Assembly: GCA_030747595.1 (NCBI GenBank) | Contig: JASLKK010000002.1 | Location: 62,001-126,000, forward strand | DNA from: Acidimicrobiales bacterium | Lineage (GTDB): Bacteria > Actinomycetota > Acidimicrobiia > Acidimicrobiales > MedAcidi-G1 | Reading direction: 5' to 3' | Length of the DNA stretch: 64,000 nt | Shown: in pieces, positions 20,664 to 33,549 of the stretch | Numbering within the stretch: position 1 is the stretch's first letter | How the letters are laid out: each line of letters opens with the position of its first letter | Position numbers and translations under genes: made by a program | The notes under the pieces: generated by a model | Database searches by the model: none | Told to the model about the DNA's origin: nothing | The model's input: the letters and a program-made list of their open reading frames with translations, nothing else

Positions 20664-22250
20664 TCAGCCCCAGCGGGTCGATGTGGTGAGCGCTCCGACC
20701 GGGAGCCTGATGTCGAACCGGTCGCGGACCCGGGCGTCCAAGTCGGGCGACACGTGCGACGGGAAGTGTGAACCGAGTATCTCGTGCACCCGGAGCCGAG
20801 CCCGTTCGTCAACTGAGGTGGCTCCGGCGTCGAACCAGTCGGCTGGGCTCAGCCGGTCGCCGACCTCCGGATAGATGTACTCGCTTTGCATCAGCGACAG
20901 AGTCTGGTCCTGGCCGAGGAAGTGGCCGGCGCCGAATATGACTGACTTGATGGTCTCGATCGAGAGGGTGTCGGGGGTGACCTCAATGCCGCGGACGGTC
21001 CGGTTGACGGCGCCCAGCATGTCGTTGTCGATGACCAGGGCCTCGTACGAGCAGGCCAGAAGGCTGGCCAGCATCCCCGCTGATTCGTAGACGAGGTTGG
21101 CGCCTGCGTGCCCGGCGAGGGCCACGGTCAGACCCTTCTCGTGGCCGGCCTGGTTGTCGGGAACCTTTGAGTCGGCCATCCCGGCGGCCACGCCGGAGGG
21201 AAGGCCCAGCCAGTTGGCCATCTGGGCCGCTGCCGCGTTGAGAACTGCCTCCTCGCCGGAGCCACCGGTCATGGCACCGGTGCGGAGGTCGGACACGAAC
21301 GGCCACAGGCCCATCACGCATGGATGGCCCGGGTTGAGCAGGTTCACGCACGTAAGCGCTGACAGGCATTCAGCGAGGGCCTGGGCGAGCGACCCGGCTA
21401 GCGCGGCGGGCGACGTAGCGCCGGCCTGCCCGGCCGACAGAAGGTTGATGGGCATGCCGGTTTGGACCTGGGCGACCATGGAACGCACGGCGTCCTCGGC
21501 ATAGCGAAGCGGCGGCACGACGAATGTGTTGTTGGCCACGCAGAACGGCCGTTCGGCGAAGGATCCGGGTCGCCCGCCCAGCATTTCATCGAACATGTCG
21601 ACCACCTCGACTACGTGTTCGGGCTGGAAAAACGACGTGCCCACTGGCTTGGTGGTGCCCATGGCCACCGCGTAGGCGGTGTTCACGTCGAGATCACGTG
21701 ACTCGATCATGTCTCGGGCTACCAGGGTGCGGACGTGGAAGTGGACGTGCTCGAGGGTGTCGACGAGGCGGGCCACGTCAAACACGTCTTGGAGGTCGGA
21801 TGGACGGTGCTTGCGGGTCTCGTGGTCCCATACCGAGACGGCGGCGCCAGCGGTGCCGAAGTGGACGCGGTCGCCGCCGACCACGATGGAGCGGTCGTCG
21901 TCATAACCGTGCCAGGTGAACTCCTTGGCGGCCATGTCGACGGCGTCCTCGACGAGGGATCGGGGGAAGTGGAGGCGCTCGTCATCGTCCAGCCAGCCGC
22001 CGGCTGGGACCACGACCTCGATGAACTCGGGGATGGGGGTGCCCATGCCGAACTCCTCGAGCATGGTCAGCGCCGTTTCGTAGACGGTGCGGCACTCCGA
22101 ATCGGTCAGCGGCTTGAAGGCGCCACCGGACTGACCGGGGTGGACGGCCTTCTCGTCGTCGGACAGTCCGGCGGTCCGTGCGGCGACACGTGCGGCCCGG
22201 CCCCCTGTCCGGCCGGCACGCTTCCCGGGAGTAGGGGTGGTGGCGCTCAT
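20664..22250 (-). CDS. MttB-superfamily methyltransferase (non-pyrrolysine type)
   Basis: A 528-residue protein of the trimethylamine methyltransferase (MttB) family, with typical blocks such as KPVGTSFFQPEHVVEVVDMF, NLLSAGQAGATSPAALAGSLAQ and GAGHFLGQDQTLSLMQSEY, given here only as short key parts. The barrel is uninterrupted by TAG, so it lacks pyrrolysine, as in the glycine-betaine methyltransferase branch (MtgB). Those enzymes pass a methyl group from a quaternary amine to a corrinoid protein. The start ATG 22250 overlaps the stop of the upstream flavoenzyme gene (ATGA at 22247-22250), so translation is coupled. No corrinoid-protein gene is in the window. Exact substrate is an inference. 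Confidence 0.85.
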   Translation of the reverse strand: MSATTPTPGKRAGRTGGRAARVAARTAGLSDDEKAVHPGQSGGAFKPLTDSECRTVYETALTMLEEFGMGTPIPEFIEVVVPAGGWLDDDERLHFPRSLVEDAVDMAAKEFTWHGYDDDRSIVVGGDRVHFGTAGAAVSVWDHETRKHRPSDLQDVFDVARLVDTLEHVHFHVRTLVARDMIESRDLDVNTAYAVAMGTTKPVGTSFFQPEHVVEVVDMFDEMLGGRPGSFAERPFCVANNTFVVPPLRYAEDAVRSMVAQVQTGMPINLLSAGQAGATSPAALAGSLAQALAECLSALTCVNLLNPGHPCVMGLWPFVSDLRTGAMTGGSGEEAVLNAAAAQMANWLGLPSGVAAGMADSKVPDNQAGHEKGLTVALAGHAGANLVYESAGMLASLLACSYEALVIDNDMLGAVNRTVRGIEVTPDTLSIETIKSVIFGAGHFLGQDQTLSLMQSEYIYPEVGDRLSPADWFDAGATSVDERARLRVHEILGSHFPSHVSPDLDARVRDRFDIRLPVGALTTSTRWG

Positions 22251-24709
22251 GCTCGCAGCCTCGCGTTGGTCGGATCGTGGGCCGGACGGTCCAGCACGGT
22301 GGCGGTGTGGCGTTGTCCGAACAGGGTGATCTCGAATGTAGAGCCGGGTGATTCGAAGGCCGGTTCGACGTAGGCGAAGGCCAGTGATCGGTCGACGGTG
22401 TGGCCCCAAGCGCCGCCGGTGGTGATGCCCATACAGCGCGAGCCGTCGCCGACCGGGTCGTAGCAGGGTTCGTTGCCCCGGCAGTCCGAGTCGGTGGTGT
22501 CGACCTCGCAGTACACGAGGACCATGTCGAGGCCGGCGTCGCCCTCCTGTTGGCGCCGGGCCAGGGTGGCATCACGGCCGAGGAAGTTGCGGCCCGAGTC
22601 GAGGTCGACGAAGCGCTCGAGGCGAGCCTCGATAGGGGTGATCTCGGTGGTGAGTTCGCCGCCCCACGCCTTGTAGGCCTTCTCCATTCGCATGACGTTC
22701 ATGGCCGACGAGCCGAAGTGGACCATGCCGTGGGGCTGGCCGGCGGCCACCAGGGTGTCGTACAACTGGGGCATTTGGTCGATGGGGTGGTGGATCTCCC
22801 AGCCGAGCTCGCCGACATAGCTGACCCGCAGGGCGATGCAGTCCACCCCACCAATCTCGACCTGCTGGCAGGTCAGCCACGGCCAGGCATCCGATGACAG
22901 GTCGGCGTCGGTGCAGGCGGCCAGCACGTCGCGGGCCAGGGGGCCGGTCACGGCGAGGATCCCCATCTGGTCGGTCCAGTCCTCGATGGTTACGTCCTCG
23001 TCGGGGAGCACGTGCTGCTGCAGCCAGTCGAGGTCGTGGGTGGAGCCGGCGATGGCCGAGTTGAGGTAGAAGCGATCGTCGGACATGCGGGTGACGGTCA
23101 TCTCGCACTCGATGCCGCCGTGCTCGGTAAGCATGTGGATGAGGCGGATGCCGCTATGGCGGGTTGGGAGCCGGTTGGCCGAGAGGCGGCCAAGGAGGGC
23201 TGCGGCGTCAGGGCCGAACACGCCGAACTTGGCGAAGGCGGTTAGGTCGGCGATGCCCACCCGGTTGCGCACGCCATGGCATTCAGCGCCGACGATGTCA
23301 TGGGCGTTGGAGCGCCGCCACGAGTAGTCCTCGGGTTCGCCGTAGTAGCGGGGACGTTCCCAACCCCAGACGTCCTGCCACTGGGCACCTAGGGCATCGA
23401 GTCGATCGGCGATGGGCGTGCGTTTCATGGGGCGGCCCGCCGAGCGGTACTCGCCGGGCATCCGCACCTGGTACATCTCGTGGTATTCGTCCACGGACTT
23501 GTCGATCGTGTACTGCTGGTCGGACCACGGGCCGAAGCGGCGGGGGTCCATTTCGCGGACGTTGATCTCGGTCTGGCCGTGGACCATCCACTGGGCGAGG
23601 TACTTCCCGGCGCCCGGCCCCTGGGTGATGCCGATGGAGGCGCCGGCGCACATCCAGTAGTTGCGTGCGCCGGCGACGGGGCCCATGAGGTAGCCGCCGT
23701 CGGGGGTGTGGGTGATGGGGCCGCTGACCACCTGTTTGATACCTGCTTCGGCGAACACCGGGAAGCGTTCGGTGGAGATCTCCAACCACGGTGCGAGCTG
23801 TTCAAGGTCGGGTGGGGTCAGGTGGAAGTGAAGGTTCCAGTCGATGCCGTCGACGCCGTAGGTGATGGAGTCGCGGGTCTCGTATGGGCCGATGAGCAGG
23901 CTGTCGATCTCGCGGCGGTAGTAGCACGATGAGCGGGGGTCTCTAATGACGGGCATCTCAACGTCGCATGCCTTCATGGCGTCGAGCGGTTCGGTAATGA
24001 GGTACTGGTGGATCATCGAAACAATGGGGACGTCGATGCCAGACATGGCGCCCAGCTGGGGGGCGTAATGGCCGGCCGCGTTGACGACGTGGTCGCAGGT
24101 GATCTGTTGCTGTTCGCTGGCGTTCCCGTCTCCAGTTTGGGTCGTGACCTGCCAGCGGCCGTCGGGCAGTTGGGTCACGTCCGTGACGAGCGTGTGGCGG
24201 GCGATTCGGGCGCCGAGTTGGCGGGCGCCGACGGCCATGGCGTTGGTGGACCCGGTGGGGTCGGACCAGCCGTCGTGGGGGGTGTGGAATCCCAGGACGA
24301 CGTCGTCGATGGACTCCATGAGGGGGGCCATGGCGCGGATCTCGTCGTGTCCGATGAGGTGCGACTCGATGCCGATCGAATCGAGCATGGCGTCGACGTA
24401 GCGGTACCACTCGGCCTGTTCGTGGTTGACGGCGAGGCGGATCGCGCCGCAACCGTGCCAGCCGGTGGACATGCCGGTCTCGGCTTCGAGGGTGGTGTAC
24501 AGCTCGGCGCCGTAGGCGTGGACCTTGGCCATGTTGAGGCTGCCGATGAAGTGCGGGACGAGGCCTGCGGCGTGCCAGGTGGAGCCCGACGTGAGTTCGC
24601 CCTTCTCGATGAGGAGGGTGTCGGTCCAGCCCTCGTGGGCCAGGTGGTAGAGGAGGCCGACGCCCATGGCGCCGCCCCCGATTATCACGCACTGCGCGTC
24701 GTTGCGCAT
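22247..24709 (-). CDS. Dimethylglycine/sarcosine dehydrogenase-like flavoenzyme with GcvT domain
   Basis: This 820-residue protein has an N-terminal DAO-type FAD domain (VIIGGGAMGVG at about 8-18, then GSTWHAAGLVP), a middle FAO_M-type linker (about 370-430), and a C-terminal aminomethyltransferase (GcvT) folate-binding domain (about 430-810, with IALRVSYVGELGWEIH). This three-part layout is that of dimethylglycine and sarcosine dehydrogenases, which demethylate the amine and pass formaldehyde to tetrahydrofolate. The first gene of a two-gene operon with the MttB-family gene, it lies opposite the IclR gene, whose candidate operator is just upstream of its start. Substrate could also be another N-methyl amine. 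Confidence 0.87.
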   Translation of the reverse strand: MRNDAQCVIIGGGAMGVGLLYHLAHEGWTDTLLIEKGELTSGSTWHAAGLVPHFIGSLNMAKVHAYGAELYTTLEAETGMSTGWHGCGAIRLAVNHEQAEWYRYVDAMLDSIGIESHLIGHDEIRAMAPLMESIDDVVLGFHTPHDGWSDPTGSTNAMAVGARQLGARIARHTLVTDVTQLPDGRWQVTTQTGDGNASEQQQITCDHVVNAAGHYAPQLGAMSGIDVPIVSMIHQYLITEPLDAMKACDVEMPVIRDPRSSCYYRREIDSLLIGPYETRDSITYGVDGIDWNLHFHLTPPDLEQLAPWLEISTERFPVFAEAGIKQVVSGPITHTPDGGYLMGPVAGARNYWMCAGASIGITQGPGAGKYLAQWMVHGQTEINVREMDPRRFGPWSDQQYTIDKSVDEYHEMYQVRMPGEYRSAGRPMKRTPIADRLDALGAQWQDVWGWERPRYYGEPEDYSWRRSNAHDIVGAECHGVRNRVGIADLTAFAKFGVFGPDAAALLGRLSANRLPTRHSGIRLIHMLTEHGGIECEMTVTRMSDDRFYLNSAIAGSTHDLDWLQQHVLPDEDVTIEDWTDQMGILAVTGPLARDVLAACTDADLSSDAWPWLTCQQVEIGGVDCIALRVSYVGELGWEIHHPIDQMPQLYDTLVAAGQPHGMVHFGSSAMNVMRMEKAYKAWGGELTTEITPIEARLERFVDLDSGRNFLGRDATLARRQQEGDAGLDMVLVYCEVDTTDSDCRGNEPCYDPVGDGSRCMGITTGGAWGHTVDRSLAFAYVEPAFESPGSTFEITLFGQRHTATVLDRPAHDPTNARLRA

Positions 24710-32465: not shown

Positions 32466-32490
32466 CCGGTCAGCGGGCCTACCTTTGACC

Positions 32491-32994
32491 ATGGACGAAC
32501 GACAGATCTGTGTTCAACGGGCGGTCTGCGCATCACCCGGAACCATTTTCGAAGTGTTGGCCAGTCCGGCCGGGCACGTATCAATTGACGCCTCCGGGAT
32601 GCTGATGTCGGCTGACGGCGACCCGGTGTCGGCGGTTGGTGACCGATTCACCGTACAGATGGACCGCGACTCGCTGCAGGACTTCCCCCTGGGTGAGTAC
32701 GAGGTAGAGGTGGTTGTCACCCGCTTCGAGGTTGACCGGGCTATTGCCTGGGGCATCGAGAGTGCCAACCTGCAGCCCCCCATCGGCCACGTCTACGGCT
32801 ACGACCTGGAGCCAATCGACGGGGGCACCCTGGTCACCTCCACCTACGACTGGACCGACGTCCACCCAGACTGGGAGGCGGCCGTCGACGCCATCTTCCC
32901 GGTGATTAGCGAGACCAACCTACGGGCCACCTTGGGCATCCTGGCCCGGACCGTCGCCCCCGGCCAGGGCCGCCCGGGTGCCGGGGAGGACTGA
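32491..32994 (+). CDS. SRPBCC-family protein
   Basis: A 167-residue protein with the helix-grip fold of polyketide cyclases/START-like proteins: VQRAVCASPGTIFEVLASPAGHVSID opening, a sheet ending TVQMDRDSLQDFPLGEYEVEV, and the final helix WEAAVDAIFPVISETNLRATLGILAR (each given as its key part only). These proteins bind hydrophobic ligands. I chose ATG 32491; an upstream TTG gives two extra residues. It lies 3 bp upstream of the AhpD-like gene in the same operon. Confidence 0.78.
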   Translation: MDERQICVQRAVCASPGTIFEVLASPAGHVSIDASGMLMSADGDPVSAVGDRFTVQMDRDSLQDFPLGEYEVEVVVTRFEVDRAIAWGIESANLQPPIGHVYGYDLEPIDGGTLVTSTYDWTDVHPDWEAAVDAIFPVISETNLRATLGILARTVAPGQGRPGAGED

Positions 32995-32997
32995 CCA

Positions 32998-33549
32998 GTG
33001 GCTTGGATCCAAACCATCCGTGAGGACGAGTGGGAGGGCCCGCTGGCCGACCTCTACGGCCAGGTGGTCGATGACGCCTATGGCCGGGTGGACAACGTCA
33101 TGCAGATCCACTCCCTTAACCCGAACGCTCTGGCCGGGCACCTCGCCGTCTACCGGTCGGCCATGGCCGGCACGAAGACGCTGCGAAAGGTCGAACGCGA
33201 GTTGGTGGCCCTAGTAGTCAGTCGGTACAACGACTGCCACTACTGAACGGTTCACCACGGGCGCGGTCTGCGCCGACTCCTGAAGGACGACGACCTGCTG
33301 GCCGCCATCGAGGACGACTGGCGCACCGCTGGCCTGTCTGACCAGCGCACAGCGATGTTGGCCTACGCGGAAAAGTTGACCGCCCATCCCGGCGACATGG
33401 TGGAGGCCGACGTGGAGGCCCTGCGGTCCGTCGGCTTCAGTGATCGCGACGTGCTCGACATCTGTGAGGTGGTGGCCTACTACGCCTACGCCAACCGGAT
33501 CGTGGACGGCCTTGGCGTGTCGATGGAGTCGTGGATCCCTGAGGACTGA
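32998..33549 (+). CDS. AhpD-like peroxidase-related protein, probable selenoprotein with TGA read as Sec
   Basis: Read through one in-frame TGA at 33244-33246, the gene gives 183 residues matching the peroxidase-related AhpD/CMD family: GPLADLYGQVVDDAYGRVDN, SLNPNALAGHLAVYRSAM, ERELVALVVSRYNDCHY, then TVHHGRGLRRLL. The TGA falls exactly where the family has the second Cys of its CxxC redox motif (NDCHY-C-xxHHG). Both sides stay in frame with no other stop, and the downstream part keeps the family end DILDI-like LDICEVVAYYAYANRIVDGLGV. A hairpin like a bacterial SECIS starts 13 nt after the TGA. The start is GTG 32998 with GGGGAGGA 7 nt upstream. The sequence cannot rule out a simple nonsense mutation, but the position and hairpin argue against it. 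Confidence 0.85.
33244..33284 (+). promoter_or_regulatory. Candidate bacterial SECIS element after the TGA
   Basis: GGCGC-GGTCT-GCGCC (33260-33274) forms a 5-bp stem with loop GGTCT. An outer pairing TTCA (33251-33254) with TGAA (33281-33284) can extend it. The loop begins at nucleotide 19 after the TGA, and the GGUCU loop is the same as that recognised by SelB in E. coli fdhF, at the same distance as far as I recall. Confidence 0.7.

Follow-up and report, generated by a model that had tools for sequence, protein, structure and literature searches.

The locus at 32998-33549(+) of the window (i.e. of the whole 64,000-nucleotide stretch analyzed here, which corresponds to G000:C2:62001-126000 in a 96%-complete genome) raises the question of whether an in-frame UGA in the gene of an AhpD-like protein marks a broken gene or a codon for selenocysteine (Sec). 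The comparative evidence presented below indicates that UGA codon 83 is almost certainly read as Sec, and that a gene split by table 11 calling is very probably a functional selenoprotein.

Reading Frame and Protein Family

32998..33549, + strand: predicted AhpD-like selenoprotein gene, GTG start, 183 aa, terminal TGA at 33547-33549
33235..33237, + strand: Cys80, first Cys of the CxxU motif, invariant (TGC/TGT in all orthologs)
33244..33246, + strand: UGA codon 83, predicted to be read as Sec, at the second position of CxxC

When TGA is read as a residue, this frame contains a single internal TGA, at codon 83, exactly where the sequence-only reading had seen the gene split, and the motifs NDCHY and TVHHG, which that reading had placed on the 5′ and 3′ sides of the TGA, are both found there. 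Calling with table 11 produced two fragments of 82 aa and 64 aa, the latter from an internal ATG, as had been anticipated for automatic annotation. The 183-aa protein matches the NCBIfam model TIGR01926 (“peroxidase-related enzyme”) with 151.5 bits against a cut-off of 81.8 and Pfam CMD (PF02627) with 44 bits against a cut-off of 23, and the family-level match to AhpD-like proteins spans codon 83.

An ORF at 32485-32994(+) is positioned directly upstream, ending 3 nt before the GTG; no Pfam match was found for it, and it accompanies the AhpD-like gene in the nearest relatives only. The gene neighborhood as a whole is likewise kept only among the nearest relatives, for which reason it was rejected as a clue to function.

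Conservation of the UGA Codon

Among 60 distinct orthologs (55-98% identity, mostly from Acidimicrobiia), TGA is present at codon 83 in all 60 and Cys in none, and a second internal TGA or other stop is absent from all of the extracted ortholog frames. Cys occupies the aligned position in more distant homologs (L024, L038, L091, L092, and L151), so that the alignment of orthologs and distant homologs agrees with the earlier proposal that the TGA stands where the CxxC of relatives has its second Cys. Among 84,980 genomes scanned, 15 loci were recovered, mostly acidimicrobial and with 65-99% identity, all of which carry TGA at the same codon (15/15). Of 296 genomes drawn from the same class, 49 contain a full-length ortholog, with TGA in 49/49 and in every match down to E = 2.6e-59, while a draw of 396 genomes of the phylum yielded further TGA orthologs beyond the class (G490, G370). 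Conservation of the protein downstream of the UGA is as high as upstream, the mean identity to the window protein being 0.70 after and 0.65 before the codon. TGA is also found at the codon-83 position in more distant homologs with about 32-41% identity, some of them from genomes of ~1 Mb.

The Downstream Hairpin

33260..33274, + strand: predicted bSECIS hairpin, 5-bp stem GGCGC/GCGCC, loop GGUCU

The stem is formed by 33260-33264 (GGCGC) and 33270-33274 (GCGCC) and carries the apical loop GGTCT (33265-33269), with 13 nt separating it from the UGA and the first loop base being the 19th after the UGA (18 nt between), which coincides with the position given in the sequence-only reading. In most relatives the stem is extended on the outside by a sixth pair; the window sequence has a G-G mismatch there, which leaves 5 bp. 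The published description of bSECIS elements calls for a loop of 3-9 nt, a stem of 4-16 bp, a minimum free energy of -7.5 kcal/mol or lower, a G within the first two loop positions, and a UGA-to-loop distance of 16-37 nt (PMC13188914); the hairpin, with its 5-nt loop GGUCU, 5 bp, 18 nt, and -9.9 kcal/mol, falls within all of these ranges.

That the bSECIS structure is kept by covariation follows from 60 distinct sequences aligned without gaps over the six-pair stem, in which 98.1% of the cells are paired and 11 double-sided changes occur. The covariation score of 0.155, compared with a shuffled mean of 0.060, was reached in 0/500 shuffles, a control that is weakened by the relatedness of the sequences, whereas the slid controls, which preserve relatedness, are all exceeded by the hairpin as well. 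Column pair 18-30, made up of the third positions of two Arg codons, occurs as GC (42), GU (8), CG (7), AU (2), and UA (1), with mismatches in 0/60. Synonymous diversity over codons 88-93 is 0.39 of background, as opposed to about 0.9 elsewhere, and is lower than in any other stretch of six codons in the gene; synonymous sites within the loop GGUCU hardly vary, with Gly90 being GGT in 59/61 and Leu91 being CTG in 60/61 sequences. The comparative evidence, i.e. the position of the TGA, the covariation of the stem, and the synonymous constraint on the hairpin codons, is far beyond chance.

The resemblance to the fdhF SECIS, which the sequence-only reading had pointed out for the loop bases, extends to the distance: in E. 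coli K-12 fdhF (NC_000913), GGTCTG stands at the same offset from the UGA. The loop GGUCU is thus shared, but the stem sequence is different and the host protein is unrelated. The 60 sequences of this covarying SECIS, which has both the loop and the UGA-to-loop distance of fdhF, form a clean natural collection for studying how SelB recognizes a SECIS.

Folding of the single sequence (47 nt) gave z = 0.61, and since the hairpin alone is thermodynamically unexceptional this line of evidence was dropped. An Rfam search at the hairpin on the + strand matched no family. A scan of this genome for more selenoproteins with the pattern TGA-N18-GGTCTG returned 16 matches versus 19 for the reversed control, and was likewise discarded, the pattern occurring at chance frequency.

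A further group of AhpD-like homologs with TGA (L082-L090 and L098; about 34-41% identity, some from ~1 Mb genomes of one family) carries the motif CxYUIRAH or similar and has its hairpin placed differently, further downstream than in the window clade, in several cases as GACCTCC-GGTC-GGAGGTC. This suggests that the use of Sec in the family may rest on two SECIS arrangements.

Selenocysteine Machinery

within C2:8419-11625, − strand: selA and selB, adjacent, 398 and 281 bits
C2:25067-25158, − strand: tRNA-Sec, anticodon UCA, 66.9 bits
G000:C4, about 97516-98439: selD (L135), 357.5 bits, in-frame TGA in GAGUGCK

All four genes of Sec decoding for which the sequence-only reading had proposed a search (selA, selB, selC, and selD) are found in the genome, and the lack of selB or selC, which would have spoken against that reading, is not observed. 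The in-frame TGA in the catalytic loop GAGUGCK suggests that SelD is itself a selenoprotein, the second predicted in this genome.

Across the 296 class genomes, SelB scores over the cut-off in 47/49 of those that bear the ortholog versus 114/247 of those without it, as counts uncorrected for kinship. Two fragmented assemblies present a partial picture, with G245 having a selA-selB pair in which the SelB frame is without its N-terminal part and no tRNA-Sec scores over the cut-off, and with G058 having selA and tRNA-Sec and no SelB over the cut-off. Low SelB scores in the ~1 Mb genomes of family f29 gave a first impression of TGA without SelB, which was rejected: the one genome examined for this (G005) has a selA-selB pair whose SelB, at 197 bits, is below the cut-off and directly beside selA, and tRNA-Sec was found in 8/8 examined genomes of the family. 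The use of Sec is widespread in a poorly studied actinobacterial class.

Reading of the UGA Codon

The two fragments given by automatic calling are what would be expected if a nonsense mutation, or a sequencing error, had split an ordinary CxxC AhpD-like gene. Against this stands the same TGA in about 60 distinct sequences down to 55% identity, and the relatives, in which the sequence-only reading would have taken breaks at other positions as a refutation, show no second lesion; conservation downstream also equals that upstream, and the hairpin is under synonymous constraint. A pseudogene, a frameshift, or an assembly error was therefore rejected on the conservation of the TGA among orthologs, its probability being vanishingly small. 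The Cys of the relatives would agree with a readthrough of the UGA by some other route, be it a near-cognate tRNA or a reassignment to Cys or Trp, resulting in a residue other than Sec. This we consider highly improbable, given that the genome encodes a full Sec pathway, that the hairpin both fits the bSECIS model and covaries, and that the ortholog co-occurs with SelB. Moreover, UGA is the terminal stop of this gene and also of the upstream ORF, which indicates that it is not reassigned; this ordinary use of UGA as a stop, together with the presence of the Sec pathway, led to the rejection of reassignment.

The insertion of Sec at the TGA, as proposed in the sequence-only reading, is thus supported by the conserved TGA, the covarying hairpin, and selA, selB, selC, and selD. 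The reading frame, the conservation of the TGA, the constraint on the RNA, the Sec machinery, the protein fold, and the catalytic residues are established computationally, and from them we infer the incorporation itself. In the mechanism envisaged, the ribosome would read UGA codon 83 as Sec, with SelB carrying Sec-tRNA(UCA) and binding the hairpin 14-28 nt downstream with its loop GGUCU, and translation would run on to UGA codon 184, which would terminate it.

Fold, Catalytic Residues, and Function

33199..33201, + strand: Glu68, putative proton-relay Glu, 12 residues before Cys80
33256..33258, + strand: His87 (U+4), putative proton-relay His, matching PA0269 His55

In an alignment of 48 homologs, Glu68, Cys80, Tyr82, residue 83, and His87 are invariant. 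These residues supply the complete Glu/Cys/His(Tyr)/Cys(Sec)/His set of the proton relay (E68, C80, Y82, U83, H87), with exactly the spacing of the PA0269 relay Glu36-Cys48-Tyr50-Cys51-His55 (PMC3141380), and in the scheme described for PA0269 the equivalent of Sec83 is Cys133 of M. tuberculosis AhpD (PMC3141380). A structure model with Cys placed at position 83 (mean pLDDT 96.1, pTM 0.90) has its best PDB matches in the AhpD-like peroxidase-related proteins 6k40, 3c1l, and 2oyo, at a TM of about 0.85, and the sequence match to 3c1l has E = 7e-30. These proteins and 2pfx share the fold but are of the Cys type and not the Sec type; the CxxC of 3c1l, 2pfx, and 2oyo aligns with the CxxU of the window protein.

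On these grounds the protein is probably a thiol/selenol peroxidase or reductase with a Glu-Cys-Tyr-Sec-His proton relay. The CxxU together with Glu68, Tyr82, and His87 would form a relay of the AhpD type, in which Sec would replace the second Cys of the relatives and a Cys80-Sec83 selenylsulfide would be formed in each cycle, the most likely reaction being the reduction of a (hydro)peroxide or of a small-molecule or protein disulfide. Also compatible with Sec is a function without peroxidase activity, either as a disulfide adaptor (an AhpD that reduces AhpC) or as an enzyme for some other substrate, e.g. in the debrominase branch of the fold. This alternative is a quite plausible one, falling somewhat short of even chances: the protein match is at the family level only, the fold comparison also retrieved the Bmp8 debrominase, and the peroxidase activity of PA0269 is only weak (PMC3141380). 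Its AhpC-adaptor version is made less likely by a search of the 96%-complete genome for the AhpC C-terminal domain PF10417, which found no match but leaves room for an AhpC without that domain or in the missing sequence; other substrates are unaffected by this result.

Returning to the peroxidase or reductase function, the Sec-locked AhpD-like lineage could be envisaged as an AhpC-independent selenol peroxidase/reductase and as a main reason for which these bacteria keep the Sec pathway, a speculative proposal that we regard as rather doubtful. The lineage would extend through Acidimicrobiia and into some further groups of actinobacteria; no reversion to Cys was seen in it, and no AhpC was detected in the window genome. 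A Sec-only clade without Cys reversion is in any case useful for the question of why Sec is retained.

Relation to Known Selenoproteins

AhpD-like selenoproteins with CxxU have been catalogued since 2005, when a survey of the Sargasso Sea reported 27 of them (PMC1088965); the GOS survey of 2008 followed with AhpD-like 1 (299) and AhpD-like 2 (70), both CxxU (PMC2398784), and a 2026 catalogue contains the entry “AhpD-like protein, TIGR01926, CxxU” (PMC13188914). The novelty implied by the sequence-only reading was therefore overrated, as even TIGR01926 is included. The window protein belongs to this known type, having the CxxU, the UGA at the second Cys, and Cys homologs elsewhere, and it shares with the Sargasso Sea and GOS examples the family model, the UGA with an in-frame bSECIS, and the widespread occurrence of Cys homologs. 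It differs from them in that those examples came from shotgun reads, whereas this gene lies in an assembled genome with Sec machinery, and in that it is part of a Sec-only clade in Acidimicrobiia. The model NF041238 (AhpD_rel_CFYUT, alkylhydroperoxidase-related (seleno)protein) represents a related fold with a CxxUT motif and matches the window protein with E = 2.3e-15; at 56.7 bits against a cut-off of 175, and over the second half of the model only, the match does not make the protein a member. A literature search, with subscription papers mostly outside its coverage, returned no relevant paper linking selenoproteins with Acidimicrobiia. The interpretation as a selenoprotein is thus right and very well supported, while its novelty extends only to a new and well-documented branch within a family of selenoproteins that was already known.

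An MttB-Family Locus in the Window

Elsewhere in the window, at 21080-21179(-), the Rfam family PYLIS_3 (pyrrolysine mttB) gives a match over threshold inside the ORF 20664-22409(-), which encodes an MttB-family protein of 581 aa. The ORF is intact and has no in-frame TAG, and thus looks like a non-pyrrolysine MttB homolog. It adjoins an FAD/GCV_T ORF (dimethylglycine/sarcosine dehydrogenase-like) at 22247-24709(-).
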